Part shown: positions 3,313 through 38,400 of the stretch, one piece after another
Layout of the letters: the number at the start of each line of letters is the position of its first letter
How positions within the stretch are numbered: the stretch's first letter is position 1
Assembly (NCBI RefSeq): GCF_026151205.1
Contig: NC_087080.1
Span: forward strand, 3,017,096 to 3,081,095
Length of the DNA: 64,000 nt
DNA from: Bolinopsis microptera
Lineage: Eukaryota; Ctenophora; Tentaculata; Lobata; Bolinopsidae
Direction: 5' to 3'
The notes under the pieces: generated by a model
What the model was told of the DNA's origin: nothing
Seen by the model: only the letters and a program-made list of their open reading frames with translations
Databases searched by the model: none
Made by a program: the position numbers and the translations under genes

Positions 3313-3963
3313 CTAGAAAATTTTCGCCACTTCAATAGATATTGGGTCGCTAATTTGGTGAGTGAGTGATGAACTGGTTTGGTCTGTGACTGAGTGAGGG
3401 GCGATGTGAAAGTTGTGGTAAGTCCAGGTGTTATTATTGTTGATGGATTGGGATCCCAGGATGATACTTTTACAGCGTAATTTAACCAAAGATACAGAAG
3501 TAGTGAGGATTTCCCCATTCTCATTTAGAATCCGTTTATGTATGCTATTCCACAATTTGGAGGCTATATAAAGAAACGTGTTGGTTTTTCTTGGGAGGAT
3601 TATGACATTACTTGTATCACGTTTTGATGTGTCTATAATACAGTACAACGAGTATGGAGTGCGAAATTTCATAATTCGAAATATCTCAGATATACAGTGG
3701 TATTTGTACAAGTTTTGAACAGTAAGCAATTTTAGTCGATTAAAAATGGGCTTGGTGTGCTCCTTTTCGAAAAAAGCAGCTCCTAACCTCTGTTTTGTAT
3801 AAGGTCTGGCTCGTGCACAAGTGGCATGTTTGTCAAGGTATGCATTTAGGTCTCCAAAAAGGATTCTAATACAACGTTTCTGAGTTATGAACAGCTTATC
3901 GTTTGGTTGGTCTTTGAGGGCTGAGCCCCAAACACTTATTCCGTAAGCAAGATGTGATTCCAA
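3313..3963 (-). pseudogene. 5'-truncated LINE, RT C-terminal part
   Basis: An open frame of 216 codons begins abruptly with YGISVWGSALKDQ and then QKRCIRILFG. This is the typical block just after the polymerase thumb in jockey/CR1-like LINEs. It continues with the KEHTKP and FRTPYSLY blocks shared with bases 1-380. Upstream of 3963 the similarity stops, as expected for a 5'-truncated copy. The frame is intact to its stop, so the insertion is not very old. Subfamily unresolved. Confidence 0.75.
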
Positions 3964-4284
3964 CTATTTTCAGATTTATAGTTTTAAATGAGTGAAGATA
4001 GATGATGGCACTGAACTCTGTGCGATTCCTTCACTAGAGATTAATTAGACTACTCAATCTAGTTTCACATCTGGTAGGTGGCAAATTAAATAGGAATAGC
4101 TGGAGAATAGAGCGGATATTGAACACTCAAGAAAACAACAATTTGCACTACAATCTTTTCTGTGGCACACAACAGAAAAACAGGTCAAGAACCATGATGA
4201 AGCAGATGATGAGCGAAATGATAATGTGCCATATTTAGAGACAAGACAGGTGAACAATGATGATGGGTGAGGCACATGGGTAAA

Positions 4285-14181: not shown

Positions 14182-17100
14182 TAAACTAATTACAACACTA
14201 CAAATCTATTACATTTATTGAGTTCAGGGATGAATGGTAATGACAGGCAAACGGGGCACATTGATAGTGTCCCAGCCAGTTCTGAAAATGATAAGACGAA
14301 CGACATGAGCGCAGACAAGTGTCACGGATGTGGAGTTGAGGAGAGTGAGACGATGAGAGGAAAGGGAGTAGATGTGTGGATAGGCTGTTCATCATGTGAA
14401 ATGTGGTGGCACGTGAGTTGCGCTGGGATGCAAGGACTAACAACAAAGACAGTCAAGGAACTGACCCAGTGGAATTGTCACTTTTGTTTCGAGGTGCCAG
14501 TGAGACTGAAGGAGACTCAAGTGTCTATGGAAGTTGGTCAAACAGTTGCACGAGAGATCCAGATGGGTCTAGCTTCTGTGACAGAGGCAGTGAGTAGTTG
14601 TGTCCAGAAGTCATTGCAGGACTCCCTTGTTGGTACGCTGGTTGGTGCAGCTAATGCAGAGATTACGAGGAGTTGGGCTAGAATAGCCAGTGGAGATCAA
14701 ACCAAGTTGATAACTGAGGTAGTCCAGGTAGCATCAGGCCCTGCTTTGTCAACAATCACTCAACAGATTGATGCAAACATGCAGCAACGTTTGAAGAGAG
14801 TCAAACACATAGTTGTGTCTAATCTGCCGGATTCAGGAAAGGAAACAGAGAGCCAGGCTGAGCTGAAGGACATCATTTGCCAGCATGCAACTGACCTTAC
14901 AACAAGTGATATTCAGTCGGCAAAAAGAGTTGGAGATTTTTCACGTATTAATCGTAACAAGTTCAGAGGCAGGATGGTTATAGCTGTTCTAAAGAGTGAA
15001 GAGAGAGCAAGCTATATGCACAATAATGGACGTGGCTTTGTATACAGAGGTAGCAAGCAAGGAGATGACGTGTGGATAAACCCTGACATGATCAAAGCAG
15101 ACAGAGATGTTCAATGGAATACTCGAGAGAAGAGAAAGGCCGAGGCTGATCTCAAGAAGAAGGGAAAGCCAGTAGCTGCGCCTAAACCAGTGATAAAGAA
15201 TGAACTCAAAACTGATGTGGCTCCTGTAACAAATGAAGAGCATGTGGATAATAAAGAAGATGTTGTCCAGAATGCTGTGAAGTCAAAAAAACGAGTAGCG
15301 AGTTGCGTGAAGGAATCACAGGGTATCAAGATGCTGTACACTAATGCTAATTCCCTGTACAATAAGATGACGGAACTCATGGTTTTGTCAGAGACTCACG
15401 ATGTTCAGATCATTTGTGTGACAGAGTCCTGGCTAAATTCAGATATTGTTGACGCTGAAGTGTCTATTCCTAATTTCAACCTCTTTCGTGCAGACAGACC
15501 TAATGATACACGTTTTGGGGGATCTGCTATCTTTGTCCACAAAGCATTGAGGGTAGAACGATTGGATTGGTTTACTGGTCTTGAATCACTTGCAGTAAAT
15601 ATTGTTATCGACTCTGTTAGGTTCAATGTTGTTTGTCTGTATCGGTCTACTTCACTTGTTGATATGAAGGACAATGCTGGCCTGTTAGGTGCTCTTGAAC
15701 GTTTACCAGTTAATGCGGATGAAGAGTTGGTGATAGTTGGTGATGTGAACCTACCTCATGTTAACTGGGACAAAAGTATAGTCGAGCGCCCACCAAACTC
15801 ATGTGACAGAAGGTTGCTGATGGAATCAGAATTCTTGAATGTCTTTACCAGGAAAGGTTTGAAGTGGTATGTCACTGGGTCTTCAACACGCGTCAGGAAG
15901 GTTGGTGATACTACTCAATGCTCCTTGCTTGATCAGGTCTTCTGCAATAATGATTGTTTTGTAAACAATGTTGATATCCTTGCTCCTCTGGGTAAAAGCG
16001 ATCATGTATCACTACTGGTTGAGCTGAAAGTTAAAAACAATGTCGAGTTCCTTACATCTAAGAAGAAAAGCTGGTATAAGGTGGATCAGGACTTCGTTAA
16101 CACACAGTCATCAGACATCAGCTGGGGGTACTCAAGAGAAGATCTTCAGGTCGAAGAGATGTGGGAAGAATTACACCAAAAACTTAGTGTCATTTCAGAT
16201 CGTGTCCCAACCACCCACCTTAAAACAACTAAAGGTGGGGAGATCTTACAGAGGTTACCCTGGGATTGCTCTAGTCTGGTTAGGAAAAGAAAGTGCAAGG
16301 ACCTGGCATGGAAGGATTTTGACGAGAATCCTACGATGGTGATGTTTAACACAGCCGAGTACGAGCAGCGGATGTACCAGAACGCTGAGATTAAGGCAAA
16401 GATTAAATATGAGAATAAAGTGACTAAATTGTTTAAGTTAAATTGTAAACCTCTTTTTAATTACCTTAAATCTAAAAGTGTTTTAAGAAAATCTGTAGAA
16501 AGACTCAAAACAGATGATGGTTCTGAGACCAAGTCTCCCTCTGAGACTGCAGAAGTGTTAGCTGATTTTTTCCAGTCAGTTTTCAAACCTGAACCTTCTG
16601 GCCCTCTGCCTCAAGATTGTTACACAGAATGTAATAATGATTACTTCTGGAGTAAATTTATGGTGCACCCTGAAAGTGTTGCCAAGATTTTGGGATCACT
16701 AGATATTAGTAAAGCTATGGGTCCTGATGGTGTTCATCCTAGACTCCTGAGGTATTTAAGTGAGAACAGTTCCTTTGTGGATGCGGTTGTGTTGCTGTTT
16801 AGTGCCTGTGCTTCTGAGCAGTATATCCCTGAGGTATGGAAAACTGCCACTGTTGTGGCCTTGCACAAGAAGGGGTCAGTACATAGTCCTAATAATTACA
16901 GGCCTGTGTCACTGACTTGTATACTATGCAAAGCCTATGAGAAGCTTCTTAGGGAGTATATTCTCGACGGTGTTGAACAGGTGCTTAGTAGCACACAGCA
17001 CGGCTTCATGAAGGGTCGGTCATGCTTATCTAACCTATTGGAGTCTATTGACGCTGTCAATGACTTGCTGGCTGAAGGTGGCTGTGCTGATATATTATAC

Positions 17101-18445
17101 TTAAATGATTTCTCTAAGGCCTTTGATAGCGTACCACACCACCGTTTATTAGTTAAATTAAGAAATGTTGGTGTTCCTGAGGAGATTATTGGTATTTTAG
17201 AAAACTTTTTAGTAGGGAGGTCTATGAAAGTTAAAGTAGGAGATGCATTTTCTGAGATTAAATATATACTTTCAGGAGTGCCCCAAGGCAGTGTTTTGGG
17301 ACCATTGCTCTTTCTTTTATTTGTAAATGATCTTCCAGAAGGGATCAAAGCTATCATCAAACTTTTTGCTGATGATGTTAAAATGATTGTTAATCCTTTT
17401 ATTAATCTAACAGCTGATTTGAAGTTGCTAGAACTTTGGGAGTCTCGTTGGTGTTTAAATTTTAATGTAGATAAGTGTATGGTCATGCAAATTGGTTCTT
17501 GTAATCCTAAGAATCAGTACTTGTTTGGTGGTTTGCCTTTGAGATGTGTTGAAAGCGAGAAGGACCTTGGAGTGGTCTTTAACACCAGTTTCAACTTTGA
17601 GGATCATGTGAGAAAGTGCATTGCTAAAGCTAATGGTACCATTGCCTGGCTTACAAGAAATATTATATCGAGGGAAACAAGCGTTATGCTGGGCTTGTAT
17701 AAGTCTTTAGTAAAGCCTCATATAGAGTATTGTTCACAGGCATGGGCTCCGATGGCTAGGCATGGAAACTGGTCACTGATTCTTGAATTGGAAGGTGTCC
17801 AGAGATCGTTCACCCGTATGATTGATGGATTGGGACTCATGACTTACAGAGAGAGACTGGATAAGCTGAACCTCACCACCCTGCTTGAACGCAGGGTTCG
17901 TGGAGATCTCATTGAGATGTTCAAGATCCAGGAAGGCTTTGTGGGTTATGGTTCCGATTTATTTGGTCGTTCTGGTAGGACTGTTGCTGCTAGATCAAAG
18001 ACTCATAGATTCACCACAAATGAGACTGATTTCTTTGCCCAAAGGGTCTTGCGCTATTGGAACAGTCTACCACCACTTGTGAAAGCTAGTGAGTCGGTTA
18101 CTGGTTTCAAGAGGGGATTAGATGCCTTTCGGCTTCATGGATATCGAGCTAATAAGCTTGGTCATCACTGGGAACTTTCATATGATATATTTGATAGAAT
18201 TGATGTTACTGTAGCTCACAGGAGTAATTATGTAAATTATATGAAAGATAATCCAATAATAGCTAAGAGGAAGAAGGTCAATTTAAAAGGCCTTACTTAG
18301 GCACTTATCAGCCAAGTTTTCAGTTAACTTCTTTTAATTTTTATATTTTAATATAATAATTAAACGTAAATTGTACAGTTTTGAAGTAATTATATTTGTA
18401 TATGAGATGCCCAGAGAGGCATAAATTTAAATCTTATCTTATCTT
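14182..18445 (+). mobile_element. CR1-like LINE, near full length
   Basis: One uninterrupted ORF (14,218-18,300) is followed by about 145 bp of AT-rich 3' UTR ending in a short ATCTT-type repeat (about 18,430-18,445), a usual kind of tail for CR1/L2 elements. The 5' boundary is uncertain. The 41 bases at 14,182-14,222 also occur in the MITE of RUNDC3 intron 5, so they may belong to the element or to its target. Confidence 0.85.
14218..18300 (+). CDS. CR1-like LINE polyprotein: PHD, endonuclease, reverse transcriptase
   Basis: 1360 codons with no break. Residues about 39-85 form a PHD finger (CHGCGVEE, WIGCSSCEMWWHVSCAG, WNCHFC). Residues about 190-320 are basic and contain an RRM-like stretch typical of LINE ORF1-like parts (HIVVSNLPDSGKE). 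Residues about 370-610 are the apurinic-type endonuclease (LYTNANSLYNKM, VTESWL, VGDVNLPHVNW, SDHVSLL). Residues about 760-1030 are the reverse transcriptase with motif A YLNDFSKAFD, motif B SGVPQGSVLGP and motif C LFADDVKMIV. The C-terminus has RMIDGLGLMTYRERLDKLNL, a block typical of CR1. The first methionine is at 14,227; the frame is open from 14,218. The intact frame implies recent insertion. Motif A has one extra residue (N) before the catalytic D compared with the usual YLDFSKAFD. Confidence 0.92.
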   Translation: MSSGMNGNDRQTGHIDSVPASSENDKTNDMSADKCHGCGVEESETMRGKGVDVWIGCSSCEMWWHVSCAGMQGLTTKTVKELTQWNCHFCFEVPVRLKETQVSMEVGQTVAREIQMGLASVTEAVSSCVQKSLQDSLVGTLVGAANAEITRSWARIASGDQTKLITEVVQVASGPALSTITQQIDANMQQRLKRVKHIVVSNLPDSGKETESQAELKDIICQHATDLTTSDIQSAKRVGDFSRINRNKFRGRMVIAVLKSEERASYMHNNGRGFVYRGSKQGDDVWINPDMIKADRDVQWNTREKRKAEADLKKKGKPVAAPKPVIKNELKTDVAPVTNEEHVDNKEDVVQNAVKSKKRVASCVKESQGIKMLYTNANSLYNKMTELMVLSETHDVQIICVTESWLNSDIVDAEVSIPNFNLFRADRPNDTRFGGSAIFVHKALRVERLDWFTGLESLAVNIVIDSVRFNVVCLYRSTSLVDMKDNAGLLGALERLPVNADEELVIVGDVNLPHVNWDKSIVERPPNSCDRRLLMESEFLNVFTRKGLKWYVTGSSTRVRKVGDTTQCSLLDQVFCNNDCFVNNVDILAPLGKSDHVSLLVELKVKNNVEFLTSKKKSWYKVDQDFVNTQSSDISWGYSREDLQVEEMWEELHQKLSVISDRVPTTHLKTTKGGEILQRLPWDCSSLVRKRKCKDLAWKDFDENPTMVMFNTAEYEQRMYQNAEIKAKIKYENKVTKLFKLNCKPLFNYLKSKSVLRKSVERLKTDDGSETKSPSETAEVLADFFQSVFKPEPSGPLPQDCYTECNNDYFWSKFMVHPESVAKILGSLDISKAMGPDGVHPRLLRYLSENSSFVDAVVLLFSACASEQYIPEVWKTATVVALHKKGSVHSPNNYRPVSLTCILCKAYEKLLREYILDGVEQVLSSTQHGFMKGRSCLSNLLESIDAVNDLLAEGGCADILYLNDFSKAFDSVPHHRLLVKLRNVGVPEEIIGILENFLVGRSMKVKVGDAFSEIKYILSGVPQGSVLGPLLFLLFVNDLPEGIKAIIKLFADDVKMIVNPFINLTADLKLLELWESRWCLNFNVDKCMVMQIGSCNPKNQYLFGGLPLRCVESEKDLGVVFNTSFNFEDHVRKCIAKANGTIAWLTRNIISRETSVMLGLYKSLVKPHIEYCSQAWAPMARHGNWSLILELEGVQRSFTRMIDGLGLMTYRERLDKLNLTTLLERRVRGDLIEMFKIQEGFVGYGSDLFGRSGRTVAARSKTHRFTTNETDFFAQRVLRYWNSLPPLVKASESVTGFKRGLDAFRLHGYRANKLGHHWELSYDIFDRIDVTVAHRSNYVNYMKDNPIIAKRKKVNLKGLT

Positions 18446-18760: not shown

Positions 18761-21700
18761 ATGTCTAATGCTTTAAAAGACTCTTTGTCAAGACAGAATG
18801 CAACTGACCGTAAAAACTTCCTCGCTGTTTGCAGGTAAAATTTCTCATTCCTTTTGCCATCTTAAAGATAATTCACACATTATGTAATCAATCTGACCAT
18901 CTCATAACCCTTGAGCAGAATAAAAAGTTAGAGAGTAAGCATTTCCTAACCCCTCGGCCTCGGATATTATGAAATATGTGAACAATTCCTTGAAGTGATA
19001 AAATTTGAAATTGATAATCCTTCTATCAGAATCATTTCAAAATTATTGAACGCTTTCCTTTATAAATTGAGATCAAACAATTGTTTGATACACCAGTCCT
19101 ATTGTTGTCAATAGCCCTTTTGTTCACTCTTACTCTGTTCCCAGACAACCACATTCCTCAGGTTGAGCATACAAACACTATGTGACGAGGCAGGCACAAG
19201 TGGGGTAATCGACGATAACAGCGATTATCTCCTTAATTTCTGTAACATAATAGAAAACTTGTTATGTCACCGTTATCATGGTAAGCAGTTTGTTTTGTTA
19301 TTGAATTCAGCTGTTAAATCATGCTTGACTTGAAATTGCTAGATACAATAACTATAGTATAATTTAATTAGCTGTCTGATCGTAATTAAGCTATGCTTTC
19401 TTAATCAAATGCACTCCTTATCAGACAAAGCTATCGAAATTTTACTGTATGTAAAAAGCTTTTTTTTTTTTCAGTTCAAAACAAGAAACAGGTTGGAACT
19501 GCAGACGGCATTGTGTTTTGGGAGTTTCTCAAGCTTGCTTGCAAGTCGGTCCCTTACAACTGCATTCAGAAGATAAATCTGATGGATAATGTGAAAACCA
19601 CACGAGGCAAGGTAATACACATTATATTATGTAGATATAATTGTTTACAGTAGAATTAATGTATCAATTATCACGTGAAATTGAAATACTCAAACCGTTG
19701 GTGGAGTAGTAAAACTAGTAAAATAAGATTACATACTACAAGCCTAATCTGTGATTATGATCTAAAACATCTTATCTAAAGTACACGTATAATCTCCAGG
19801 GAAGAGCCTGGATACGAATGGCACTGATGGAGAAGAGACTGTCAGAGTATTTCTCAGTTGCTCTTATGGAGGACACTGTTTTGAAGAGATTTTACGATCA
19901 CGGGAGTTTTATGCTGAACGAGGAGGCCCACATAGTGGCTAACGTTATGACTGCTCTTAACTCTGTGGATTTCAGGTAAATCACATTTCTATTTGATCCT
20001 GTTTATATTTCAATGATGTTATTATGTTCCTTAATTTCATTTAGTAATTGCGTATTATCATTGCCTTGTTGTAACGATCAGATCTTATATCAGTCTGTTA
20101 TGAAGCTATTATATCAGTCTGTAATGAAGCTATTAAATTTAAGCACTAGATATTAACCTTCTTACAGTTTGTGTTTGAGGAGCCACACCTTCGATCTTCC
20201 AGTTGTTTACTCAGTTGACTACACTCCCTTTCTCAAATACCCAATAAGGTATGTTATATATTTTGTGATACAGTGAAAATGTAAACCCATTTTATATTCT
20301 GTGTATATATCATGTTGATAAAGCTTTCGCTGACGTTAAGGAAAGTAGAGATTGTCCAGCAAGGGTGTTAATTAGCCGCAATCCTCCCAAGATAAAATAC
20401 GTTAGGATCTTAAGATTTTTTAGATATCATTGAGCATAAGCAGTTTTAAGCATAGTTTTAAACTAATTACAACACTACAAATCTATTACATTTATTGAGA
20501 TGAGTCATCGATCCTGTTGATGGCGGTAAGCCGAAACTAGTCGAGACTCTGCGGATCATCCCGAGATACGTTGTATCACTGCTTATGCTCAATGATATCT
20601 AAAAAATCGTATATATATCATATCACCCCTCAGTGCTTTTCATAAAAGATCGTTAGGGCCGATCATATCATGATAGAATGAAACAAATGTGCGACTAATC
20701 TATAATGTGTGTACTTGTATTTGGCTGTAATCGATTTGGCTGTCTTGGTTGTATCGGTGTTTTGGCTTGAACTCATGTGTGTAAACATGTCGTGTACAAT
20801 TAATTTGATTAAAAAACATGCTGGACTGTGGACAATACATAAATACTTTATTGAGAACTGACAAGTAGATAACATGTTATATGGAGAGACAAATTTGGCT
20901 TAAAAGCCATCAGTATTAAAGTTCAAAGTTTTCGCAAATGAGGGAAAAGTTCACAATGTGTTCATAAAGAAATTCAGCACTTAGAAGATTGACCCTATTT
21001 CTAAGGAAAGATATATGGGGATATATGAAACGTTTATTCCAGAAATGGTGAGTATCGCTGAATCAATTAACAAGAATCTAGCTCAGATAATCTGGTTGCG
21101 TTATATTAAGTAACACAGCAGCACTGGTAGATACTATATATCACAGTCATCAAAGAAGTTGAGCAAGCACAAGTTGCATTTTTTTTTCAAGTAGAAAAAT
21201 GTTGAAAGGTTTGAATTAACGAAACGAGAGTTGTATTTGCAATGAGGCAAGTTTCAGTTGAAATGACTGTATCTGCATGCTCCATAAATGCAGAATTTAG
21301 ATTCAAAAATCGAATCCACATAGAAATACAATATACTAAATTATCATAATATAATGCAAATATAGTACAATCTTGACATGATGTCATTTCCTAATCTTCA
21401 CTATACAACTGTACTTCTCTACCGCACTAAGTGCAATCTACTCTTAGGTTATCATTAAAACACTCAAACCATAAACTGAACAAGGAAGTGCTCTGCAGGT
21501 ACATGACACAATACACAAGTACACATATTACACACGAATATTTGTAGCCGTATTAACTTACAAGTGCCACTGTACATTACACTCGACACGCCTGCCTAAT
21601 GTGGCATTACAAAGCTGTCTAACAATGTGTTTAACTTTACTATTACTAACTTTCTGCTACTATTTATCTTCTCAGATGTTCCTAATCAAGACTTACAAGA

Positions 21701-24700
21701 ACTTGGTAGTAACAAGAGTACGATTTGTAGCTCAGAGAAAATGTAACCAATTTAATTAATCAGTTCAGCAAATATTTCTGAACTCATACAAATGACAAAT
21801 TCCAGAGTGTATTACACATGCATTCCAACATAGTTTGGACAGGTTAACTATCAATACGGCCAGCTCAATATCACGCACTAGCTTGTTAACAAAACGTCTG
21901 TACAAAACTAAAATATTCGCTACAATATAACACTGTAATAATCCTGTTAATTGTTAAAAGTTACCTACAGTTACTTAAATAAGTTACCTAAAGTTACATA
22001 AAGAAGTTACTTATGGTAACTTAAAATAAGTTACCTAAAGTTTATATTTCAGTGACAAGCAACTAGATTTGGAAGAAGCTCTAATAAGACTGGAGAGAAA
22101 CAGAGTACAGAACGATGCTTCCTCCACCTGTAGTGGGCACACTAGGTAAGTTAACTAACTAACCAATTACTGATTGGTTTAAAGCCTGAGGTGGGCAATC
22201 TAATGTTGCTGTTTGTGGTCGAGAGTCCGACTATTATATATGAGGACTAATATCTAGACTAGATAAGGACTAATATCTAGACTAGATAAGGACTAATATC
22301 TAGACTAGATAAGGACTAATATCTAGACTAGATGAGGACTAATATCTAGACTAGATGAGGACTAATATCTTAATATCTAGACTAGATGAGGACTAATATC
22401 TAGACTAGATGAGGACTAATATCTAGACTAGATGAGGACTAATATCTTAATATCTAGACTAGATGAGGACTAATATCTAGACTAGATGAGGACTAATATC
22501 TAGACTAGATGAGGACTAATTATAATATCTAGACTAGATGAGGACTAATATCTAGACTAGATAAAGACTAATATCTAGACTAGATGAGGACTAATATCTA
22601 GACTAGATGAGGACTAATATCTAGACTAGATGAGGACTAATATCTAGACTAGATGAGGACTAATATCTAGACTAGATGAGGACTAATATCAAGACTAGAT
22701 GAGGACTAATATGGACATCTTTAACAAGACGTTGTCTCACGTTTTGACTGCCACATGCTCGAATTTTGACTGCCAAACCATGTGATAGTTATTACTCGGC
22801 CAATTTTAAACCAATTACCACAAAAATTTGTAGTTTGGTCAACAAGGATACAATAATCACTCATTCATCAACATGAAACAGCTAAATTTGTTATTTGTAC
22901 ACTTTATGATAAGAATATCACAGGGAAACTTGTTTATGGCTGTGTAAAATCGAATTTACATGATTTCAGTGAGTTATCATGATAGATGTGACCATCAAAC
23001 CTTTCTGAAGCATGTGGGTGTTATATGTACCGCGATTAATGATTAAATATACGAAATATGGTACGATTATCACACATCACTTAGGGTAGGCTATAATGAC
23101 AACCAGTGAGGACTATTTTGATGTTTTGAATGCTATTCAAGGTGCTTTAGGCTGTAAAATTATGTTGTAATGATTGACAATCAATAAATGACCTGTAAAA
23201 GATACAAATATCACATTAAATTCAATATTTTTCACGAATCAATGTCAATAATGTGTGAATGTTGTTTTTGAAGATCAATTCATCCAATATTATTAAACAT
23301 AGTCAATAAGTAATAGGCATTTCATTAAATAAGCACTTTTCAGATACAAATATCACTAGATTAAAAAAAATTTAAAAAAATTAAAAATTATTTAAATTGA
23401 AATTGTGATATTCGTATCCTATTTTGGTTCCTAGATGTGCTGTGTAAGATGTTCAGGGAGTAATAATGTTTATTGTACATGTATCAAAAAGAATCTCGTT
23501 CTATAGACCCATATTGATACATTTATCACGAATGTTACACTTGTAAAATTTGGTTCACAAAAAATGTGATATTTGTATCCTTCAAGTGGTTGGAACAATT
23601 TTTCATCCTTGTATCCATACGGAGTTACCATTTTTGTAGGTGTGAATGAAGTTTCATCTTTATTAATGAATTATGTACCCTTCAAACAGCCACCCAGAGA
23701 ACTGGACCCGAAAAATAGCTATATTTCGTTGTTTTAAAATACAATGTGATAATTGTAGTACATCTAACGGGAGGTTGATTTTTGTATCATACTTTTCACT
23801 AATTCTGTTTGGAATTGCCTCTGGTACAGTTTGAGTTCAAAGAAACAGAAAAAAGAGGTCAAGGGGATTCAATAATCACATCATAAAACGGACAATTTTG
23901 AAACGAAAATGTGTGATATTTGTATCATAATGAGCCTAAATAACGATTTCCTTTTGTACACTGCTTCCTTAGGAGACAGGCATCATGTTACGAAATTTTC
24001 ATAAAAAATTGATAACATTCAGTCTCTCCAGACCCATTTGTATCATTATCACATCTCAGAAAATGTGATATTTGTATCATTGGACTTTAACGTGGTCTAG
24101 CTCTGTCAATTTATGTGATAGCATGATTTTGATTTCATAGTCATAAAGCTATGAAGATTCTGCAACCAATCAATCGAGTCTATCATAGCCAATAGACTAT
24201 ATAAGACTCTAAAAATCAATTTAGAAAAAGTCAAAACGTGAGACAACGTCTTGTTGAAGGTGTCCATATCTAGACTAGATGAGGACTAATATCTAGACTA
24301 GATGAGGACTAATATCTAGACTAGATGAGGACTAATATCTAGACTAGATAAGGACTAATATCTAGACTAGATGAGGACTAATATCTAGTCTTCCAAACGG
24401 ACAACTTATCTTGTGCCTCTATAATATTGGGACTACACTGTAGCTGATAACCAAACTGCCCTGATATCCAGATTACCCGTGCAGTGTGCACCTCCAGCTA
24501 AACCATATTGTTGGTACAGACAGCCAGACAGATCTATAAATAGATCTGATATATCAATTTCAGGAAAACAAATCCTGAGATTTGCAAAGTTAGGATTGAA
24601 GATATTTTACCGAGAAACTTACTTCGCGCTTACCTGAAAACGTAACACATAACGGCTGTTTAATGTTCAGGGTTTTAGGGAAATATTTCTTAACTCACAT

Positions 24701-27700
24701 AAATTAGAAAAGTCACAGTCACAAGCAAATATTATTATTCTAAAGAATATATGTATTCTTTAGAATATATTTTCAGTCTAAAGAATACAATATGTTATAT
24801 ATTATAAAATACATACGCTGGCTGGGAAATCTATTGTTCATGGAATGATACTTACTGCTAAGTACATATACTTAATTAAGTATATTATATACTAAATAAT
24901 ACTAAGTAGATGTTTTAAATAAGTTGTTTGATGGTGATAATTTCTGCAGTCTCCGGGCGAGATCTGTGTGTACATTCTCGTAAGTTTGAGTTGGTTTTGA
25001 ACTTGTACCTTTAAACCCCTCCTCTCGCGATAAAACACTTCTTGATTAGTTCTATATCCTATAAGACTTGTTCTAAAATTTGAGCAATTACCATTGACAC
25101 TAAAATGCTAACCTTTTTAATTCTGATATCCTTTCTTCTAATTGAAATTAATAGCTATGAAGAAGGAAGAGAAATACAATTTTTCAGAACTCAACAGTCA
25201 CCGTTCAATGATTTACAAATTGCATTATATCCATTCTTAAGAAGGTGCAAAGTTTTATTTATAGGTGTTCTTTCAGTACCATATCAGAACGAGAATTGTC
25301 AGCTGAAGAGGAACTGATAAAACTGAAGAGACAAATGAAAATAGTGGTCGACCAAAAGGTAGGATTTGTCAATTACTCAATTACTCAATTACTGTAATTG
25401 AGATCTTGTTAACTGTAGTCGTGATCATGTTGCTGAATATGTCAGCTTGGTATATGTTACGATATTTTAACCAATTACCCAATTAGTTCCAGGATGAAAT
25501 CTAAAATATTAGATATTTAAGTTCTGTTTTTCCTTGCAAAATTATACGGCAATTTAACATGAAATAGGGACTCCTAACCCTACAGAAATTTAAAGTTGAA
25601 CTTGACTAGATTCGTTACATGCGGCAATAAAACCATATAAGCTTATAACACCACGGTCGCTGAAATTCACTGTTTGTCAAAACTTTTACATAATTAACTG
25701 GAGCTTGATTGTGTAATAAAACTTTATTGACAGTCAACTGAACTGAGTAGCGAATCCCACACAATATATTTACATTAAAACTTAAGTTGCATCATGTGCT
25801 TGTTTCTCTTCAACCATTGAATAATGAATATTAATTGTGTTTCAAATTATATACTCCAGTACAGACTACAGCTCTTAATTCTTTTCAAATCACTTTTCTC
25901 TTCCTCCCTGTATATGTTTCGTCCTAAATGTCGAGGCCTTTAAAATTCTTTACATCACAAGTAAGATTTATTAAACAAAGTTTGTGTATTTTTCTGCCCA
26001 CGGAGTTGCCATTACATAATGGTTTTGTCTGTAACTGAAGCATAACATTAAACTGTCTATAAGCTGTACCCTACACTGACTAATACTGGAATCTCCAGAG
26101 ATAACAATTGTTTAAGTTTAAGTGAGATTAAGTTACCAGAATATACTGCCACAAAAAAGTGCAGTACAACATCTTCTATTTATTAGTGGTTAAACAGCTT
26201 TACAGTGAACAAGGTCTAGTACCTGTACAATGTACATTGTGCCTGCAATAGACACTAACTGTGTACAATGTCCACCTTGGACACTGTACACAGTACAGTG
26301 TACAATGTCGACACTGTAGAGAATATAGAGAGACAATAAGGTGTCTAGAGTTTAGTTTCAAGAGAACACTTTACGGTGTCTAAAGAGTCCAGAGTACAGT
26401 GTTGTGTGTTTCAGGCGTATCTGGAGGAGATCCTGCACCTAAGGGAAGTGAAATGCACAGAACTAACACAGCAGCTGTTACTAGGTGTTACTAGGTGTTA
26501 CTAGGTGTTACTAGGTGTTACTAGGTGTGTGTTTCAGGCGTATCTGGAGGAGATCCTGCACCTAAGGGAAGTGAAATGCACAGAACTAACACAGCATCTG
26601 TTACTAAGTGTTACTAGGTGTTACTAGGTGTTACTAAGTGTTACTAGGTGTGTGTTTCAGGCGTATCTGGAGGAGATCCTGTACCTAAGGGAAGTGAAAT
26701 GCACAGAACTAACACAGCAGCTGTTACTAGGTGTTACTAGGTGTTACTAGGTGTTACTAGGTGTTACTAGGTGTGTGTTTCAGGCGTATCTGGAGGAGAT
26801 CCTGTACCTAAGGGAAGTGAAATGCACGGAACTAACACAGCATCTGTTACTAAGTGTTACTAGGTGTTACTAGGTGTTACTAAGTGTTACTAAGTGTTAC
26901 TAGGTGTTACTAGGTGTGCGTTTCAGGCGTACCTGGAGGAGATCATGCACCTAAGGGAAGTGAAATGCACGGAACTAACACAGCAGCTGTTACTAAGTGT
27001 TACTAAGTGTTACTAGGTGTTACTAGGTGTGTGTTTCAGGCGTATCTGGAGGAGATCCTACACCTAAGGGAAGTGAAATGCACGGAACTAACACAGCAGC
27101 TGTTACAGTGGGACGAACAGGCGGAGAAGGAGAAAGCCCTGTCAGACAGCATCATAGTGGAGCTACAGGGCCAGCTAGCTGAGCAGCAGTTCAGAAACAG
27201 GATGTTACAGGAACAGATGGACAGGAGTACGAGTAATGGGTTCCAGGAGATGGAACCTGTTCTTGCTAGGTAGGGGCGTTTAGTGTTACTAGGTGTTACT
27301 AGGTGTTAGTAGGTGTTACTAGGTGTTACTAGGTGTTACTAGGTGTTACTAGGTGTTATTAGGAGATGGAACCTGTTCTTGCTAGGTAGGGGAGTTTAGT
27401 GTTACTAGGTGTTACTAGGTGTTACTAGGTGTTAGTAGGTGTAACTAGGTGTTACTAGGAGATGGAACCTGTTCTAGCTAGGTAGGGGAGTTTAGTGTTA
27501 CTAGGTGTTAGTAGGTGTTACTAGGTGTTACTAGGAGATGGAACTTGTTCTTGCTAGGTAGGGGAGTTTAGTGTTACTAGGTGTTATCAGGTGTTACTAG
27601 GTGTTACTAGGAGATGGAACTTGTTCTTGCTAGGTAGGGGAGTTTAGTGTTACTAGGTGTTATTAGGTGTTACTAGGTGTTACTAGGAGATGGAACTTGT

Positions 27701-30339
27701 TCTTGCTAGGTAGGGGAGTTTAGTGTTACTAGGTGTTATCAGGTGTTACTAGGTGTTACTAGGAGATGGAACTTGTTCTTGCTAGGTAGGGGAGTTTAGT
27801 GTTACTAGGTGTTACTAGGTGCTATTAGGTGTTACTAGGTGTTACTAGGTGTTACTAGGTGTTACTAGGAGATGGAACTTGTTCTAGCTAGGTAGGGGAG
27901 TTTAGTGTTACTAGGTGTTACTAGGTGCTATTAGGTGTTACTAGGTGTTACTAGGTGTTACTAGGTGTTACTAGGTGTTACTAGGAGATGGAACCTGTTC
28001 TTGCTAGGTAGGGGAGTTTAGTGTTACTAAGTGTTACTAGGTGTTAGTAGGTGTTACTAGGTGTTACTAGGTGTTACTAGGTGTTACTAGGTGTTATTAG
28101 GAGATGGAACCTGTTCTTGCTAGGTAGGGGAGTTTAGTGTTACTAGGTGTTAGTAGGTGTTAGTAGGTGTTACTAGGTGTTAGTAGGTGTTACTAGGTGT
28201 CACTAGGTGTTACTAGGTGTTATTAGGTGTTAGTAGGTGGTACTAGGTGGTACTAGGTGTTACTAGGTGTTACTAGGTGTTACTAGGTGTTATTAGGAGA
28301 TGGAACCTGGTCTTGCTAGGTAGGGGAGTTTAGTGTTACTATGTGTTACTAGGTGTTTAGGTGTTCAGGTGTCGCTGGGTTGCACAATTGAGTTTAGTGT
28401 TACCCTAGGTGTTACTAGGTGTTAGTAGGTATAACTAGGTGTCAGTAGGTGGTACTAGGTGTTATTAGGTGTTACTAGGTGTTACTAAATACTAGGTGTT
28501 ACTAGTTGTTACTAGGTGGTACTAGGTGTTACTAGGAGATGGAACCTGGTCTTGCTAGGTAGGGGGAGTTTAGTGTTACTATGTGTTACTAGGTGTTACT
28601 AGGTCTTTAGGTGTTCAGGTGTCGCTGGGTTGCATAATTGTGATGAAAAATTAAGAATACATGCAATGATTGTCAGTTAGTCTTGCTTAAACTTGGATTT
28701 AAAGGATTCAATGATTATTGATTTATTCTATATATTTGATTCAATCTGGACTGATAACATTATCATGTAATCAATAAACTAATCAATTAACTAATTAATT
28801 AACTAATTAATTAACCAGGAACAGGAACAGTGTGTCCCTCCACAGATCAACAGAGGATCCCAATAAAGCTGTAGATGTTATAGCTCATATGGACCGTAAC
28901 GGGTTCTGTTCCAGGAGGTTAGTGTATTACACTAATACACAGTGTATAATGTATAATGTATATTACACTGTGTATTACATGCTGTTACTTAGTCTGATTA
29001 TTAACTATTGTAACTAAGTATTTTTAAGTCAAATTGTTACACTTATATGTATTATGTATTCGGATATTCGTGACCCCTATAATACTTACGGCTTGTCGTC
29101 ACCTGTCATACACTGGTGAGTGCCGGTCAACTGCAAACTCTTGATACATTTTCGCAAATTGTTATATTCTAACCATGGTAACATTAGCCATACATGTAAC
29201 CATGGTAACATTACATGTAACCATGGTAACATTACATGTAACCATGGTAACATTAGCATTCTTCTTCAGTTCCTCAGACCAGTCAGTGAAGCTGAGTGCG
29301 TCTGACCAGTCAGTGAGACGCAGCACAGAGACTGTCATTACCAGAACCAGCTCTACCTCCGGCTCTACCTCCAGACCTAGAGCTAAATCTGGGTACTCTA
29401 AACAGGTAGCTAGTCTCCTCCTTCTTTTCTAAACAGCTACTGAGTAGTGAGATTTAGGTTTTGTTACATTGGAAGTTATAGTAAAATCAACAAAATAGGA
29501 GAGTGAAATCAATACGGTGAGATACCCAACACCGTGGTGGGAGGTGAATTTCATTCTCCTTTTTATTTGACTTCACTATACCTACCGATATGTAAATTGT
29601 TCTATATTGGGTAAAATGGGGAGATGGATAAACTTGTAGAGTTTAGGTTTAAAGATTTGGTAATCTAAAGCTATACTATACTGAGGTCGTTGAGTAAATC
29701 AGCATTCACGGTGATAACAATACAATTTAATACATCAAAGAATACCCTGATCTTGATAAATGAATCATTGCTGTTTATTATTGCTTTAGAAAGGTCGACC
29801 ACCCTCGATGAGAGAATGAAAGTTGGAATATTGCCAATGTTGGGTAAAATATACAATCTATTCAGTAGCTTGTAGTTTTAGTTTTCTTTCTTCTTCACTC
29901 ATTCAAATGCATACCTTTTTTAAATTTTGCGATGTCTTTAGTTGCGTCCGCTTCCCGAATTCTGCTAAATCTTTGTGCCAATTTAGCAATTTTTCGTGCA
30001 CTGCATGGGATTTATTGTGTGATTGTGAGAATGGCTGATAATTGGCCGTTTTAATTAATAAGTGAAGATTTATATCCTTTATGATAGGCTTCTTCGTTAA
30101 TAATGCACTTAAAAATGAAATTTGATTCCTTGCACCAAGCTAATACTTAATCAGTTATCACATCACAGCATACACCGTTATCATAAAGTAACAAGCTTAA
30201 TTAAATTAAATCACTTTTACAGAAAATAGCTGTAGCCGTGGAAGATATCCTGCCCTCTGAAAAAGAAAGGCTCATGTTCAACGTCCACAAGAAACTGCAA
30301 ACTGAAACTTTTATCTCCTTCGGCGACCCAGACGGTTAA
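18761..30339 (+). CDS. RUNDC3: RUN domain-containing protein 3 (11 exons, 447 aa)
   Basis: Exons: 18761-18834, 19162-19280, 19475-19611, 19800-19975, 20168-20248, 22053-22145, 25277-25358, 27040-27269, 28819-28917, 29270-29405, 30223-30339. All junctions are GT-AG and every phase agrees. Residues 18-195 form the RUN domain: RKNFLAVCR, IDDNSDYLLNFCNIIENLL, GRAWIRMALMEKRLSEYFS, RFYDHGSFMLNEEAHIVA, VDYTPFLKYP. Residues about 230-320 form a coiled coil (AYLEEILHLREVK, SIIVELQGQLAEQ). A Ser/Thr-rich tail follows. Length and order match vertebrate RUNDC3A (446 aa), a Rap2-interacting protein of neuronal and endocrine cells. The start ATG precedes the conserved RKN-L-VCR block by 17 residues, as in vertebrates. 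An extra 5' non-coding exon cannot be excluded. Exon 8 is flanked by arrays copying its own splice sites. Confidence 0.93.
20414..20608. mobile_element. 195-bp MITE with 30-bp perfect TIRs (RUNDC3 intron 5)
   Basis: Bases 20,414-20,443 are the exact complement of 20,579-20,608 (GATTTTTTAGATATCATTGA, continuing GCATAAGCAG). The inside holds TAAGCCGAAACTAGTCGAG. It also holds a 41-bp segment (20,459-20,499) identical to the 5' edge of the CR1-like LINE at 14,182. No ORF. Target duplication not evident. Confidence 0.8.
22240..22711. repeat. 23-bp satellite, left part
   Basis: About 20 copies of a 23-bp unit containing ATATCTAGACTAGAT and GAGGACTA. Some are partial copies, for example at 22,361-22,373 and 22,440-22,455. 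The array lies in RUNDC3 intron 6 and resumes after the TIR element at 24,267. Confidence 0.93.
22712..24266. mobile_element. 1.55-kb TIR element inserted in the satellite
   Basis: The ends are TGGACATCTTTAACAAGACG and the complement of GTCAAAACGTGAGACAACGT..TGTCCA. The TIR is about 38 bp with two mismatches. Insertion is inside the 23-bp array with a TA duplication (ATAT if the ends are set one base inward). No transposase frame exists. The interior has at least a dozen scattered forms of GATACAAATATCACA on both strands, for example near 23,200, 23,343, 23,403, 23,566, 23,909 and 24,066. TA target choice is compatible with the Tc1/mariner-like superfamilies but the ends do not identify one. 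Confidence 0.85.
24267..24393. repeat. 23-bp satellite, right part
   Basis: Five more copies of the same unit continue directly after the TIR element and end at CTAATATCTAG near 24,390. The phase at the junction fits a simple insertion into one array. Confidence 0.92.
24394..25276. other. RUNDC3 intron 6 remainder
   Basis: AT-rich intron sequence with short inverted stretches (TTCTAAAGAATATATGTATTC near 24,737). The 70-codon open frame at 25,105 overlaps the exon 7 acceptor and has no recognisable content. Confidence 0.5.
25359..26410. other. RUNDC3 intron 7, unique part
   Basis: Nothing recognisable apart from a TACAATGTACA-type repetitive patch at 26,225-26,320. The splice-site array begins at its right end. 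Confidence 0.5.
26411..27039 (+). repeat. Array of five decoy exon-8 acceptors
   Basis: Five tandem modules precede the true exon 8. Each has the acceptor TTTCAG and about 70 bases of exon 8 (GCGTATCTGGAGGAGATC to CAGCAGCTGTTAC), then several TTACTAGGTG decamers. The exon copies begin at 26415, 26538, 26661, 26784 and 26927; the true exon begins at 27040. Module length is 123, 123, 123, 143 and 113 bp, so it varies by whole decamers. Exon copies differ by only a few bases (CAC/TAC, ACA/ACG, CAG/CAT). The copies read open for about 23 codons and then stop in the decamers. Confidence 0.95.
27270..28640 (+). repeat. Array of about eleven decoy exon-8 donors
   Basis: After the true donor (GCTAG|GTAGG at 27,269), the last 25 or so bases of exon 8 plus the donor (GGAGATGGAACCTGTTCTTG, then CTAGGTAGGGG) recur near 27363, 27461, 27534, 27611, 27687, 27762, 27867, 27984, 28101, 28295 and 28535. 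They are separated by TTACTAGGTG decamers. Each copy keeps the AG|GTAGGGG donor. The decamers are the same as those on the acceptor side, so both arrays share one expansion process. Confidence 0.93.
29160..29260 (+). repeat. 21-bp repeat abutting the exon 10 acceptor
   Basis: Four copies of ACCATGGTAACATTACATGT-type units end about 10 bp before the pyrimidine tract and AG of RUNDC3 exon 10 (29,270). Confidence 0.85.
29406..30222. other. RUNDC3 intron 10
   Basis: About 820 bp with no array and no coding signal. The small open frames around 29,690-30,038 show no recognisable content. Confidence 0.55.
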
Positions 30340-31471
30340 TCTTCATTCTTTCTGCTTTCCAAATTGTTAAATGAAATTCTTGATTTTTGTATAAACTATG
30401 TTTTGTAAATTTTTGAACCATTTTATCGCTGCTGTTATTCAGATAAGCTGTGATTAACTTGAGAGAGATTTATTACGGTTTTATAACGAAAAATCAATGC
30501 AAGCGGACAGATTTTAAACTAGTATAGATTGTATCTCTAGGCTAGGGATAATATTTACGGGAATATTTTCTGATATGTGATCAGATGTATCAGAAATCTG
30601 TTTTGTAGGTATCCAGTAATATATAATATCATAAAGGGGAGTTTGAAATTGCCGAATATTTTCCGTTTTGGCATCAGATAACATAACTAGGCGGATAAGT
30701 CTAACATTTTATTGGTAGCTATCCTTATCGATAGTAATTAGATTTAATAAGTGTTACAGATTATATATTAGCTTGTCTCGTATTTGTTGTGTGTAATTAA
30801 TACCTTCTTCTTCACACGACGCCGTTCCTATGTAATGATCTGATGTGTGTATGCCATGTGTGATCTGCCGTTTTCTGACAAAAGTGCTTAAGTAACATTT
30901 TGGAAATTTCGGGTTTTTTGGTCTAACTTTTGTTTTTGGGTCGAGAACTATCCCTGAGGACCATTGGATAGATTCGCCGACTTCCCGAAACCCCCTTTTT
31001 GGAACCCCCTAAAATGCAAAATATGGTCATTTTTCTGAGAAAAGTGCTTAAGTAACATTTTGGAAAACTGGTGCCGTTTATCTCAAAAACGGTGCCATTT
31101 CGGGAACTGAAAACGGTGGCATTGTTATTTACGCCCAAAACTGGCCTAGTGACGGTAATTTGGTGATCGTGGGTCTTTTGGCATGGGAGAAAACAATTTA
31201 TGTCACTTAAGCACTTTTGTGAAAACGGGCTCGTTTTCTCACAAAAGTGCTTAAGTGCCATTATACGTTTAATTAAATGTTGATACTGCCAACTGAAACT
31301 ATATAATCGGTACTAACAAATCTAAATTTTCACGGCGGATCGATTGGTGATGGTCATAAACTTCAGAAACGCTAGCTTCGCCGTCAAAATTGCCGATTTG
31401 TCAATGCAGAACGTTTCAAAATATACGTCATAATTTGCTCTAAAATTTTTTATTCTCTTATAAGTTGAGAC

Positions 31472-32034
31472 TGGCGGGATTATCGACAGGCAAGGGAACA
31501 TTACCAAAGAGATAGAAGCGATTTGCTTCACTGCTCCTTCTCTGTTGATATGGAGAAAGTTCTTTTACTACCACACATGCCGGAGTACAAGGAGGCGATT
31601 TTTACAAGACGCCTTGTCACATTTAACGAGACCTTCGCGAGGCTGGGGTCAGACGGAGCTCCTTTAGCGATTCTTTGGAATGAGTCAATCGCAGCCCGCA
31701 GGAAGGAAAGATGAGAATGTGTCCTCGACTTGGATAAGGGCAATAAAACATTTTGCCAGTTGGCAAGATTGGTGGTAGCAGGGAGATCATTTTTTGGGCA
31801 GACAATTGTTCTGCTCAAAACAAGTGTTGGACTTTATTTACTGCCCTATGTTCAATTATCAACAGCCCAGATGTTGACCTGGACAAGATAACGGTCAAGT
31901 ATCTAGAGCCAGTGCACACCTTTATGAGTGCAGACTCATTCCACCATAAAGTGGAGTTGTCCATTAAACAATCCGGTCAACTTCATGATTATAAGGACTT
32001 TGTTCAGGCAGTTGAACAGGTGGGTACTGCATGA
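31472..32034 (+). pseudogene. Transposase remnant (WADNCSAQNK type)
   Basis: The frame at 31,472-31,714 reads WRDYRQAREHYQRDRSD, FSVDMEKVLLLP and AIFTRRLVTFNETFA. After a frameshift, the frame from about 31,753 reads FWADNCSAQNKCW, then KYLEPVHTFMSADSFHHKVE. This string of motifs belongs to a transposase-like family frequent in cnidarian and other invertebrate genomes. The Asp residues in WADNCSAQNK and near MSADSFHH are likely active-site or metal ligands, by inference. The frame stops at 32,034. The N-terminal half is missing or decayed, so the gene is dead. Confidence 0.7.
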
Positions 32035-32745
32035 ACTGCACAGACTTTGAAACGTGGCCAAGGTCCTACGGAACAAGCAACTAAAAAACTAAAGATGTTA
32101 AAGTTGTAAGTTTCCAGCGTGGGTCTGTAGGAATGGAATGGAAAACAAATCATGACGAGGTTTCCTTTCATTTCACTCCATTTCTCAGACAAAAAGACGA
32201 GAGACTCATTTCCATAGGTTGAAAAATAGCTTTCGCCCAGGAAGAGACCCGGGTGATAGCTACTCCCAAAAAACAAGACATTATTATATACGTAAACTGT
32301 GCAGGCTTATGGCCCCGAGTAGTAGGGTATTCTGGATGAACTTGCCTGATAGTACAGATATAACAGATCTTAATCGAGTGTTTGACTAAAAATCATCTAT
32401 TTCTTGTATTATTCACCATTTATTTATGTACAACAATTATGTTACATTTGTATACGCTTGTTTTTCTTTGCCTCGCGTTACAATATCAATAATTCGCAAA
32501 TCATTGGTCTTAATGAAGAAAGCCTCATCTGAGTGCTTAATTTAATTTCTAAAGAAAGAAAATTATTTATTATTATCCCGTACTTTCACCAATCAACTCT
32601 TCGTTGAAATGCTGGTAGAATTCCGACTATTTTTTAATCCGCTGGGGAGAAAGGAGTATTTTCGTGTTCTTAAACCACCACCAATCAATTTGTCGTAAAA
32701 TTTTAGGTCAGAATGATCGCAGATAAAGTTCCCACTAATGTGGCT

Positions 32746-33103
32746 GTACTTAAGCACTTTTCTCAGAAAACGAAATTTTCAAATTTTCTATTTCAGCGTG
32801 TCCCCTATTTACAACCAATGTTTCATCACAACAGTTTTAGGCTAATTTTTCGTTTTACTTTCGATGACCAATGGTTTGAACGGGTCATTTTCATCAGAAC
32901 ATGTAGTATCTGCCGATGTGACTGTACTTACGCACTTTTCTCAGAAAACGAAATTTCAAATTTTCTATTTCAGTGTGTCCCCTATTTACAACCAATGTTT
33001 CATCACAACAGTTTTAGGCTAATTTTTCGTTTTACTTTCGATGACCAATGGTTTGAACGGGTCATTTTCATCAGAACATGTAGTATTTGCCGATGTGACT
33101 GTA
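32746..33103. repeat. Two 178-bp tandem copies inside the transposon
   Basis: 32,746-32,923 and 32,924-33,100 are nearly identical. Each starts with GTACTTAAGCACTTTTCTCA, the transposon end motif, and a third motif copy starts at 33,101. The 131-codon open frame across them repeats itself for this reason and is not a gene. Confidence 0.88.
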
Positions 33104-33344
33104 CTTAAGCACTTTTCTAAGAAATCCAAACTATAATTTGTGATTTTGAGGCACTTTCCGAGAAGTTAGGATGATGAAACCTTGTCAGAAGTCTCAAAAG
33201 TCGACAAAGTACCTTAGAAACATAGTGGGTGCAGTTTAAATTGTACAGTAGCTAGCCCAGAGCAATTACAGAATTGAAATCTTTAACCTCAATTTGCACA
33301 AAATGAACCTTGTGTTACTTAAGCACTTTTGTCAGAAAACGGCA

Positions 33345-35499: not shown

Positions 35500-38400
35500 C
35501 TAGCAGGGGGTTTGTTAGCAAATACTAGTGTGTTGTAACCCTGGATACTCAAGTAAAGGCACCAGTTTTTAATATGGGCCAGTGATTCAGCTAAATAAAA
35601 ACTTAACGATATACATTTTATTTGAATTCAGTGTTTGAAGGTGTTATAACTAATAAACAAGGTTAAATAACAGGAGTGCATTTAAAAATTAAGTTAAGAT
35701 GGAAGAGCACAATAACTGAGAGGATAGGTTGATACACAAAACATAATTAAAACTGGCTTGGTTGATGTTCCAAAGAGATGTTGGGGATCATCAATTGAGC
35801 ATGCTCGAAAAGGTATATCGGAAAAGTACGATCCTTGCATAAACAAGACACACCAAGTGCACAAATTAGAGAGAAAAAACGCGAAATTGTTGTAAATTCG
35901 TGAAAATAATATTATATGAACCAGGGTAAATAAAGAAGAGCGAAAAAAGGATCAGAAATTTCATGAAACAAATTATATCATGCAGGATTTACAATCTAAA
36001 TGATCACGATGGATATTTATTGGTATTGGTATTGGTAGAAGCAAAAGACATTACTACTATTATAATTTTGATGTAATGATTGGTTATTAAAAGAGTACAT
36101 TTCCTTATCTCATAACCTAGATAAGACACCAAGTCTACAGATTTCTTGTTTCACATGCTTTATATATACAGATTACAGACACTGTTGATGCACTCTTTAT
36201 TTACCCATATTGCAAGGTTTATACACCTTGGAAGGATAGGTTTTGGTGTCGGTTCTTGTTACCCCTATTGCTTGAATACGCAAATTGCTGGAAGATTTTC
36301 TGGTTTTAGGGATTTAATGATAATTATTAAATGGTATTATTGTTATTGCTCGATTTAACTCGAGGGCTCCTTAGACCAGCGAGTGTTCGAGTAATGAGAT
36401 AAACTGCTTAAACAAACCCAATATCACTCAGAGTCAATACCTGTACAGCTAGAGTGAATCTTAACTCCGTAACTCAGCGCCAGTATACTTACTAGACACT
36501 ATATTCAGAAACAATACCAACGCCCGGTAGAAAGGACACATTAAGTAACACACCAAGACTCAGAAAATACCGTTATTTAAAGTAAAACCAGCCCTAGTTA
36601 TACTTAGAAGATACCAAACTAAAACCTGGTAAACTCCGGTTACATACAGACTAGATACTTGACAATGATATTGCGCACTACACCTATGTACAGTACATCT
36701 ATTACTCGCGGCTTATACCCCGGCTTCTCCAACTTCTCCTACAAGTGGTTTAATAACCGTGTCGTTATAATCTCAGTTAGATTAGTTAAGTTTATAAGTT
36801 AACTAAATCTTATTTATCCTTAATCATTCATAATGAGCTTAATTTCGATCAGGATATTTTGAATGACCCCAAGGTCTCGTGGTCCCCAATGTTTCAGGTA
36901 GTAGAGATTAAATTACCTTGTTGGTGCGATCTAAACTGTTGACAGTAAGTTTAGGTTGGTTGTTGTGATTAGAGTTGCTGACTGGAGGTGGTTTGGGGGG
37001 CTGTTCAGCACTCTCCTCAGTCGCTGGTAGATCGTTTATACTGTTCTTACTTCCGGACTTAAAGAACCCTGTGGGAGGTAGGGACTGTGTTGGGGTACTC
37101 AGTTGGTTTGTTATTAGGGGTCGTTTATAAATTATGTAATCGCTGAGTGTTAGGGTATTCAGTTGGTTTGTTATTAGGGGTCGTTTATAAATTATGTAAT
37201 CGCTGAGTGTTAGGGTATTCAGTTGGTTTGTTATTAGGGGTCGTTTATAAATTATGTTATCGCTGAGTGTTAGGGTATTCAGTTGGTTTGTTATTATGGG
37301 TCGTTTATAAATTATGTAATCGCTGAGTGTTGGGGTATTCAGTTGGTTTGTTATTAGGGGTCGTTTATAAATTATGTTATCGCTGAGTGTTAGGGTATTC
37401 AGTTGGTTTGTTATTAGGGGTCGTTTATAAATTATGTTATCGCTGAGTGTTAGGGTATTCAGTTGGTTTGTTATTATGGGTCGTTTATAAATTATGTTAT
37501 CGCTGAGTGTTAGGGTATTCAGTTGGTTTGTTATTAGGGGTCGTTTATAAATTATGTTATCGCTGAGTGTTAGGGTATTCAGTTGGTTTGTTATTAGGGG
37601 TCGTTTATAAATTATGTTATCGCTGAGTGTTAGGGTATTCAGTTGGTTTGTTATTAGGGGTCATTTATAAATTATGTTATCGCTGAGTGTTAGGGTATTC
37701 AGTTGGTTTGTTATTAGGGGTCGTTTATAAATTATGTTATCGCTGAGTGTTAGGGTATTCAGTTGGTTTGTTATTAGGGGTCGTTTATAAATTATGTTAT
37801 CGCTGAGTGTTGGGGTATTCAGTTGGTTTGTTATTAGGGGTCGTTTATAAATTATGTTATCGCTGAGTGTTAGGGTATTCAGTTGGTTTGTTATTATGGG
37901 TCGTTTATAAATTATGTTATCGCTGAGTGTTGGGGTATTCAGTTGGTTTGTTATTAGGGGTCGTTTATAAATTATGTTATCGCTGAGTGTTAGGGTATTC
38001 AGTTGGTTTGTTATTATGGGTCGTTTATAAATTATGTTATCGCTGAGTGTTGGGGTATTCAGTTGGTTTGTTATTAGGGGTCGTTCATAAATTATGTTAT
38101 CGCTGAGTGTTAGGGTATTCAGTTGGTTTGTTATTATGGGTCGTTTATAAATTATGTTATCGCTGAGTGTTGGGGTATTCAGTTGGTTTGTTATTAGGGG
38201 TCGTTTATAAATTATGTTATCGCTGAGTGTTAGGGTATTCAGTTGGTTTGTTATTAGGGGTCGTTTATAAATTATGTAATCGCTGAGCGTTGGGGTATTC
38301 AGTTGGTTTGTTATTAGGGGTCGTTTATAAATCATGTAATCGCTGAGCGTTGGGGTATTCAGTTGGTTTGTTATTAGGGGTCGTTTATAAATTATGTTAT

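Follow-up and report, generated by a model that had tools for sequence, protein, structure and literature searches.

Tandem copies of both edges of one exon, linked by a dispersed ten-nucleotide repeat, in a RUN-domain gene of the ctenophore Bolinopsis microptera

The stretch of Bolinopsis microptera DNA analysed here (64,000 nucleotides, hereafter the window) contains a gene for a RUN-domain protein, one exon of which lies between two arrays built from its own edges. Ten exons traced by hand between 19145 and 30339, exon 27040-27269 among them, form a single open frame when joined, its only stop being the terminal one; a further upstream exon is likely and is left out of the ten joined. The product carries a RUN domain (PF02759, E 2e-28) and matches the RUN structures of RPIPx (E 1e-19) and RUFY3 (E 1e-18). 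Upstream of the traced exons, positions 14218-18300 hold an unbroken LINE-like frame of 1360 aa, in which endonuclease and reverse transcriptase domains are recognised. The features of the locus are as follows, with a caret marking a splice border here and below.

19145..30339, + strand: host gene (RUN-domain protein, PF02759), ten exons traced by hand, open frame
26408..27032, + strand: left array, five decoy copies of the acceptor with the first 63 coding nt, and 4-7 decamers after each
26478..28595, + strand: exact decamer TTACTAGGTG, 64 occurrences
27040..27269, + strand: authentic exon, 230 nt, acceptor GTTTCAG^GCG, donor GCTAG^GTAGGGG, in the joined open frame
27247..27269, + strand: 3' end of the exon, template for the right-hand copies
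27284..28640, + strand: right array, decamer blocks plus 11 decoy copies of the exon tail with its donor

Both edges of the exon are copied, the tandem repeat unit spanning the intron-exon boundary at each side. On the left, the unit is composed of TGTG(T/C)GTTTCAG, the copied coding start (67 nt rather than 63 if TTAC, common to exon and decamer, is counted), and a run of decamers (TTACTAGGTG or TTACTAAGTG). Extra copies start at 26408, 26531, 26654, 26777, and 26920, with the real edge at 27033, giving six copies of acceptor and exon start in all; the units measure 113-143 bp, and the copies differ from the real edge at 2-4 positions per 79 nt. On the right, the unit comprises the exon's last 23 bases GAGATGGAACCTGTTCTTGCTAG, GTAGGGG, GTTTAGTG, and decamers, with scattered substitutions. 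Its extra copies start at 27363, 27459, 27535, 27611, 27687, 27763, 27869, 27985, 28101, 28297, and 28536, so that with the real one at 27247 there are 12 copies of exon tail and donor, in units of 76-239 bp; the first ten extra copies (R1-R10) show 1-3 differences from the real edge per 50 nt, and R11 is shifted by one inserted base. GTTTCAG^GCG is present in all five extra acceptors and GCTAG^GTAGGG in all 11 extra donors, and AG or GT is kept in 16 of 16 extra copies.

These counts agree with an initial annotation of the sequence, which had reported about eleven extra copies of exon tail plus donor in 27270..28640 (we count 11 at those coordinates, all retaining GT) and an exon bracketed by decamer-linked copies of its own acceptors and donors (5 and 11 extra copies, respectively). 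The same annotation called the arrays mirrored, a loose description: the two arrays have the same direct orientation and their decamer populations differ. The exact decamer occurs 64 times in the window, always within 26478-28595 (19 in the left array and 45 in the right); shuffled sequence yields 0.22 on average. The left array contains only TTACTAGGTG (19) and TTACTAAGTG (7), and the right array TTACTAGGTG (45), many other variants, and TTACTAAGTG once. The expectation that left and right would share decamer variants is therefore largely disappointed, and because few variants are common to both sides, the two arrays seem, from their sequence, to have one motif in common but to have expanded separately.

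The initial annotation knew of no standard element with this form. The same architecture has nonetheless been described in amphioxus, where mirages, minisatellite-like duplications of intron-exon boundaries affecting both 5' and 3' boundaries, were reported in the Adh3, globin, and troponin C genes, with PGBD5 likened to them; RT-PCR suggests that regular splicing is undisturbed there, and it has been proposed that introns originate from mirages (PMC3087553, PMC3902484). As in those descriptions, the ctenophore arrays are tandem boundary copies with splice signals kept (many copies in amphioxus, 16 of 16 here), and we file the arrays at exon 27040-27269 as a putative mirage-type structure. They depart from the amphioxus mirages, as described, in the ctenophore host and in the copying of both edges of one exon. 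A decamer common to unrelated genes genome-wide (see below) may be a further difference.

Would the extra splice sites matter to the gene? Use of a decoy acceptor with read-through to the real donor brings a stop at codon 30 of the exon (5/5), and use of a decoy donor brings one directly past the true border (AGG TAG, 11/11). Given that the frame runs on through the authentic exon and that an early stop follows from each decoy site tested, we read the copies as probably splice-neutral, with the innermost acceptor and donor in use and everything else intron. One could instead suppose regulated decoy splicing, with the copies buffering or controlling use of the exon: AG or GT survives in every copy, and the early stop from each decoy could feed nonsense-mediated decay. 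However, the copies differ by just 0-5 nt in the aligned 79 or 50 nt (the R11 shift apart), so that the kept signals need no selection, and the work on amphioxus suggests that splicing proceeds undisturbed by mirages (PMC3087553, PMC3902484); we consider such regulation very improbable.

Tandem repeats are plentiful elsewhere in the window, amounting to about 11.3 kb (18%) when summed over most of the repeat entries. A 23-nt minisatellite occupies 22240-22712 and 24266-24388. The insert that separates its two parts has ends of 41 nt that repeat each other in inverted orientation (22709-22749 and 24229-24269, 95%); judging by these ends, it probably represents a DNA-transposon-like element that jumped into the minisatellite. 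Long minisatellites with units between 8 and 79 nt occur at six further places, 37087-39727, 40314-40675, 40783-41496, 44502-46061, 58322-59179, and 59397-59850. By reading, phrases near ACTTAAGCACTTTTCTCAGAAAA and its reverse complement recur across 30880-33340, partly in a 177-nt tandem pair.

The decamer itself is dispersed through the genome. An exact search of the assembly (264.65 Mb, 232 contigs) returned 97 instances of three exact decamers in a row (a 30-mer), against none for the reversed control, and these form 15 groups, the window included, with 10 kb or more between one group and the next. We examined the other 14 groups as 15 regions, together with five further places having two decamers in a row, picked among the matches listed (100 of 185 two-decamer matches). 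Copied flanks were sought in the 15 regions by self-comparison with decamers masked, and in the five further places by reading. (A control for flank sharing based on swapped flanks was rejected: 1164 of 2800 swapped pairs also had at least 8 bases in common, the flanks still holding decamers, and the masked self-comparison took its place.) Copied non-decamer flanks appeared in seven of the 15 regions (L010, L012, L015, L016, L017, L021, L023) and in three of the five further places (L064, L065, L066). Flank-carrying arrays are thus found at 11 of 20 places including the window, L015 and L016 being paralogous, and no copied flank was detected by masked self-comparison or reading at 9 of the 20 decamer places. 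The copied flank measures from 8 to about 85 nt across places. In the paralogous pair, stretches are mostly 80-99% identical (92-100% over the longer decamer-masked ones), but there are four flank copies in L015 and two in L016 within one assembly, which suggests, by this comparison of paralogues, that copy number may change.

The edges of other exons are caught up in the same way. L023 holds a tubulin gene that shows copying at two of its acceptors, the decamers there running antisense to it: CTCAG^GTAGATGAACAG is present in three extra copies, of which the outermost is altered at two positions of its exon part, and GCTCAG^GAGGAAAG in two, the outermost diverged to GCTAAG. The gene is recognised by a Tubulin_C match (E 4e-17) and tubulin matches at C14:133143-133891, which we take to belong to one gene. 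On sequence grounds, exon edges in the copied flank are firm at the window (acceptor and donor) and at this tubulin gene (two acceptors). Copied donors are probable at L010 and L017, where the adjoining open frames have no firm family assignment, and L012, L066, and L015/L016 may carry donor edges too, on thin coding evidence. The decamer would then be a common ingredient, recurring likewise at other genes of the same ctenophore. Further decamer sites lie close to likely splice sites: at L022 (about 3921-4255, reverse strand), the intron of a WD40-like gene, whose WD40 matches fall below Pfam's cut-off, seems to be made up mostly of decamers, which also supply its likely acceptor, TTACTAG; by reading, the decamers of L068 and L013 begin about five bases past likely donors (G^GTAAG and GAG^GTGAG, respectively).

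A strong donor consensus lies within 40 nt of array starts in 1 of 48 cases (1 of 53 antisense; 1.9% of random stretches), which gives no general donor preference in a scan that counts blocks of one array several times and whose pattern misses donors such as GTAGG. Among 40 tubulin and glutamate-receptor loci, no exon-edge copy was counted, in a weak control in which most frames are long and probably from single-exon genes or genes with few introns, three being under 40 aa; two loci were flagged (L025 and L041), where an array reaches into the stop-to-stop frame and ends before the domain match begins. With none of the 40 counted, mirages are apparently not general in this genome, as far as 40 loci of two families with seemingly intron-poor frames can tell. 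Two glutamate-receptor domains of the genome agree with its ctenophore origin: their best match is ML032222a of Mnemiopsis (245 and 188 bits), followed by 4zdm of Pleurobrachia (196 and 146 bits), with other animals scoring 102 and 90 bits or less.

How did the decamer come to lie at so many places? A transposon carrying it was rejected, as flanks are not common between places. Beyond the decamer, no shared element body was found within 400 bp of the arrays, and the flanks are unrelated except in the paralogues L015 and L016. A broader version of the idea makes the decamer array itself a mobile, splice-tolerant, introner-like element that inserts with long target-site duplications and so makes or enlarges introns. 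Such an element would account for the dispersal to at least 15 places, the flank copies on both sides, and the apparent decamer sequence at the 3' end of the intron of the WD40-like gene (its matches below Pfam's cut-off). It would also suit the clustering of sites: among the matches listed (100 of 185), 24 of 35 decamer clusters have a neighbour within 10 kb against a random mean of 0.1, a figure to which fragments of single arrays contribute; separate sites at distances of about 1-9 kb from one another occur on contigs C4, C5, C11, and C14. Yet a body common to the arrays is missing within 400 bp of them, where only the paralogous pair matches, the flank copies vary in length as given above, and the sequences at decamer sites put no fresh intron gain in evidence, so that we regard this account as improbable. 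Most introners proper are consistent with DNA transposition, some families having 3-9 bp target duplications or inverted ends and others lacking them (PMC9860276); like them, the decamer is one sequence recurring beside exons of many genes, but the ctenophore sites have just a 10-nt repeat in common, with no element body found within that distance of the arrays. The initial annotation had held that a related species with no array but with decamers elsewhere as a mobile sequence would imply insertion rather than local growth; in this genome the decamer has indeed proved to be dispersed, but no mobile body common to its places was found within 400 bp of the arrays, and local growth stands.

The structure of the joins bears on how that growth began. 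Wherever both original ends are readable, the unit has the order flank, decamers, flank. Over all 17 joins, with the join strings picked by hand, strict scoring (gaps counted as zero) gives 26 nt of exact overlap between decamer and original, compared with the 11.3 that blunt joining predicts (simulated P 0.001). Joins leading from edge to decamer overlap by 18 nt over seven joins against 4.7 expected (simulated P 0.0001), the seven including one gap, one zero, and L012 with one substitution allowed, and leaving out as undefinable the right side of the window, L021, and L023d. For joins returning from decamer to edge, strict scoring gives no excess (8 nt over ten joins against 6.7 expected, P 0.36), four of the ten being gaps and two zeros; hand-scored leniently, with the departing last decamer, an 11-nt unit, and one substitution admitted, they reach 21 (P 0.0002). 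Microhomology is clear at the joins that leave the edge and weaker at those that return to it. The initial annotation's suggestion that slippage or break repair acted at the borders of the exon is borne out in part, by the local origin of the copied flanks and by the overlap of edge-to-decamer joins beyond blunt joining, but at the return joins it finds agreement only under lenient scoring.

The missing strict excess at the return joins makes a break-repair reading slightly weaker and slightly strengthens an alternative in which the arrays came first: a decamer array would have existed beside each splice site as an ordinary intronic minisatellite, and slippage with microhomology would later have drawn the exon edge into the unit. 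Arrays at 9 of 20 decamer places have no detected copied flank, the donor-side cases fit, the decamers there being intronic, and a window that is about 18% tandem repeat suggests a genome that grows such arrays readily. The acceptor side is where this order of events meets difficulty. In all three acceptor-side cases (the left array of the window and two in tubulin), the decamers abut the exon interior, where a prior array would interrupt coding sequence; they can hardly predate the duplication without cutting the exon, unless themselves spliced out. Their position favours duplication of the edge and insertion of the filler together, and we hold the array-first account to be rather unlikely.

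The reading we prefer, at a probability of roughly 0.55, is a double mirage: two minisatellites with an exon edge in the repeat unit, the decamer filler having been placed during the repair or template switch that duplicated the edge, followed by separate, near-neutral expansion. Repair of a break or of a stalled fork at this edge would have duplicated local sequence (8 to about 85 nt), and a block of TTACTAGGTG, templated from another decamer array via microhomology, would have been set between the copies. To judge from the copy patterns, slippage or unequal exchange may then have enlarged each array on its own. The innermost sites, for which the frame has been demonstrated, would remain in use and everything else would be intron. 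The change would be close to neutral because the exon stays whole between the copies.

Parts of this double-mirage origin have counterparts among repair processes. Break repair duplicates local DNA, splice sites included (PMC2671141), and the ends of breaks give rise to small tandem duplications (PMC8355091); the ctenophore arrays would resemble both in local duplication by break repair, but the duplications of those reports are described without a dispersed motif between copies. In Daphnia, neointrons bear short exon-end repeats that have been attributed to staggered double-strand breaks (PMC4202315), whereas the ctenophore copies run from 8 to about 85 nt and are repeated many times with a recurring filler.

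A more far-reaching possibility concerns the decamer itself, whose TACTA and AG^GTG presumably resemble branch-point and splice-site signals. The 10-nt repeat could be a splice-tolerant invader that spreads from edge to edge, within and between genes, as repair filler, duplicating edges so that the gene survives and building introns from minisatellite. We put this forward as a speculation that is more probably wrong than right by a wide measure.

Among the papers listed, no earlier work on exon-edge minisatellites in ctenophores was found, as judged by titles and, for some, the beginnings of abstracts. The mirage type itself was already known; what is new is the ctenophore host, the copying of both edges of one exon, and one decamer at at least 15 places, at some of which it links local exon-edge copies. 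In the amphioxus descriptions, exon-edge minisatellites were proposed as raw material for new introns. A ctenophore case with one repeat at the exon edges of unrelated genes would make mirages independent of the amphioxus lineage. It would also provide a set of apparently young cases that show whether duplication, filler, or expansion came first, so that comparisons among individuals and sister species could put a break-repair model of intron growth to a direct test.
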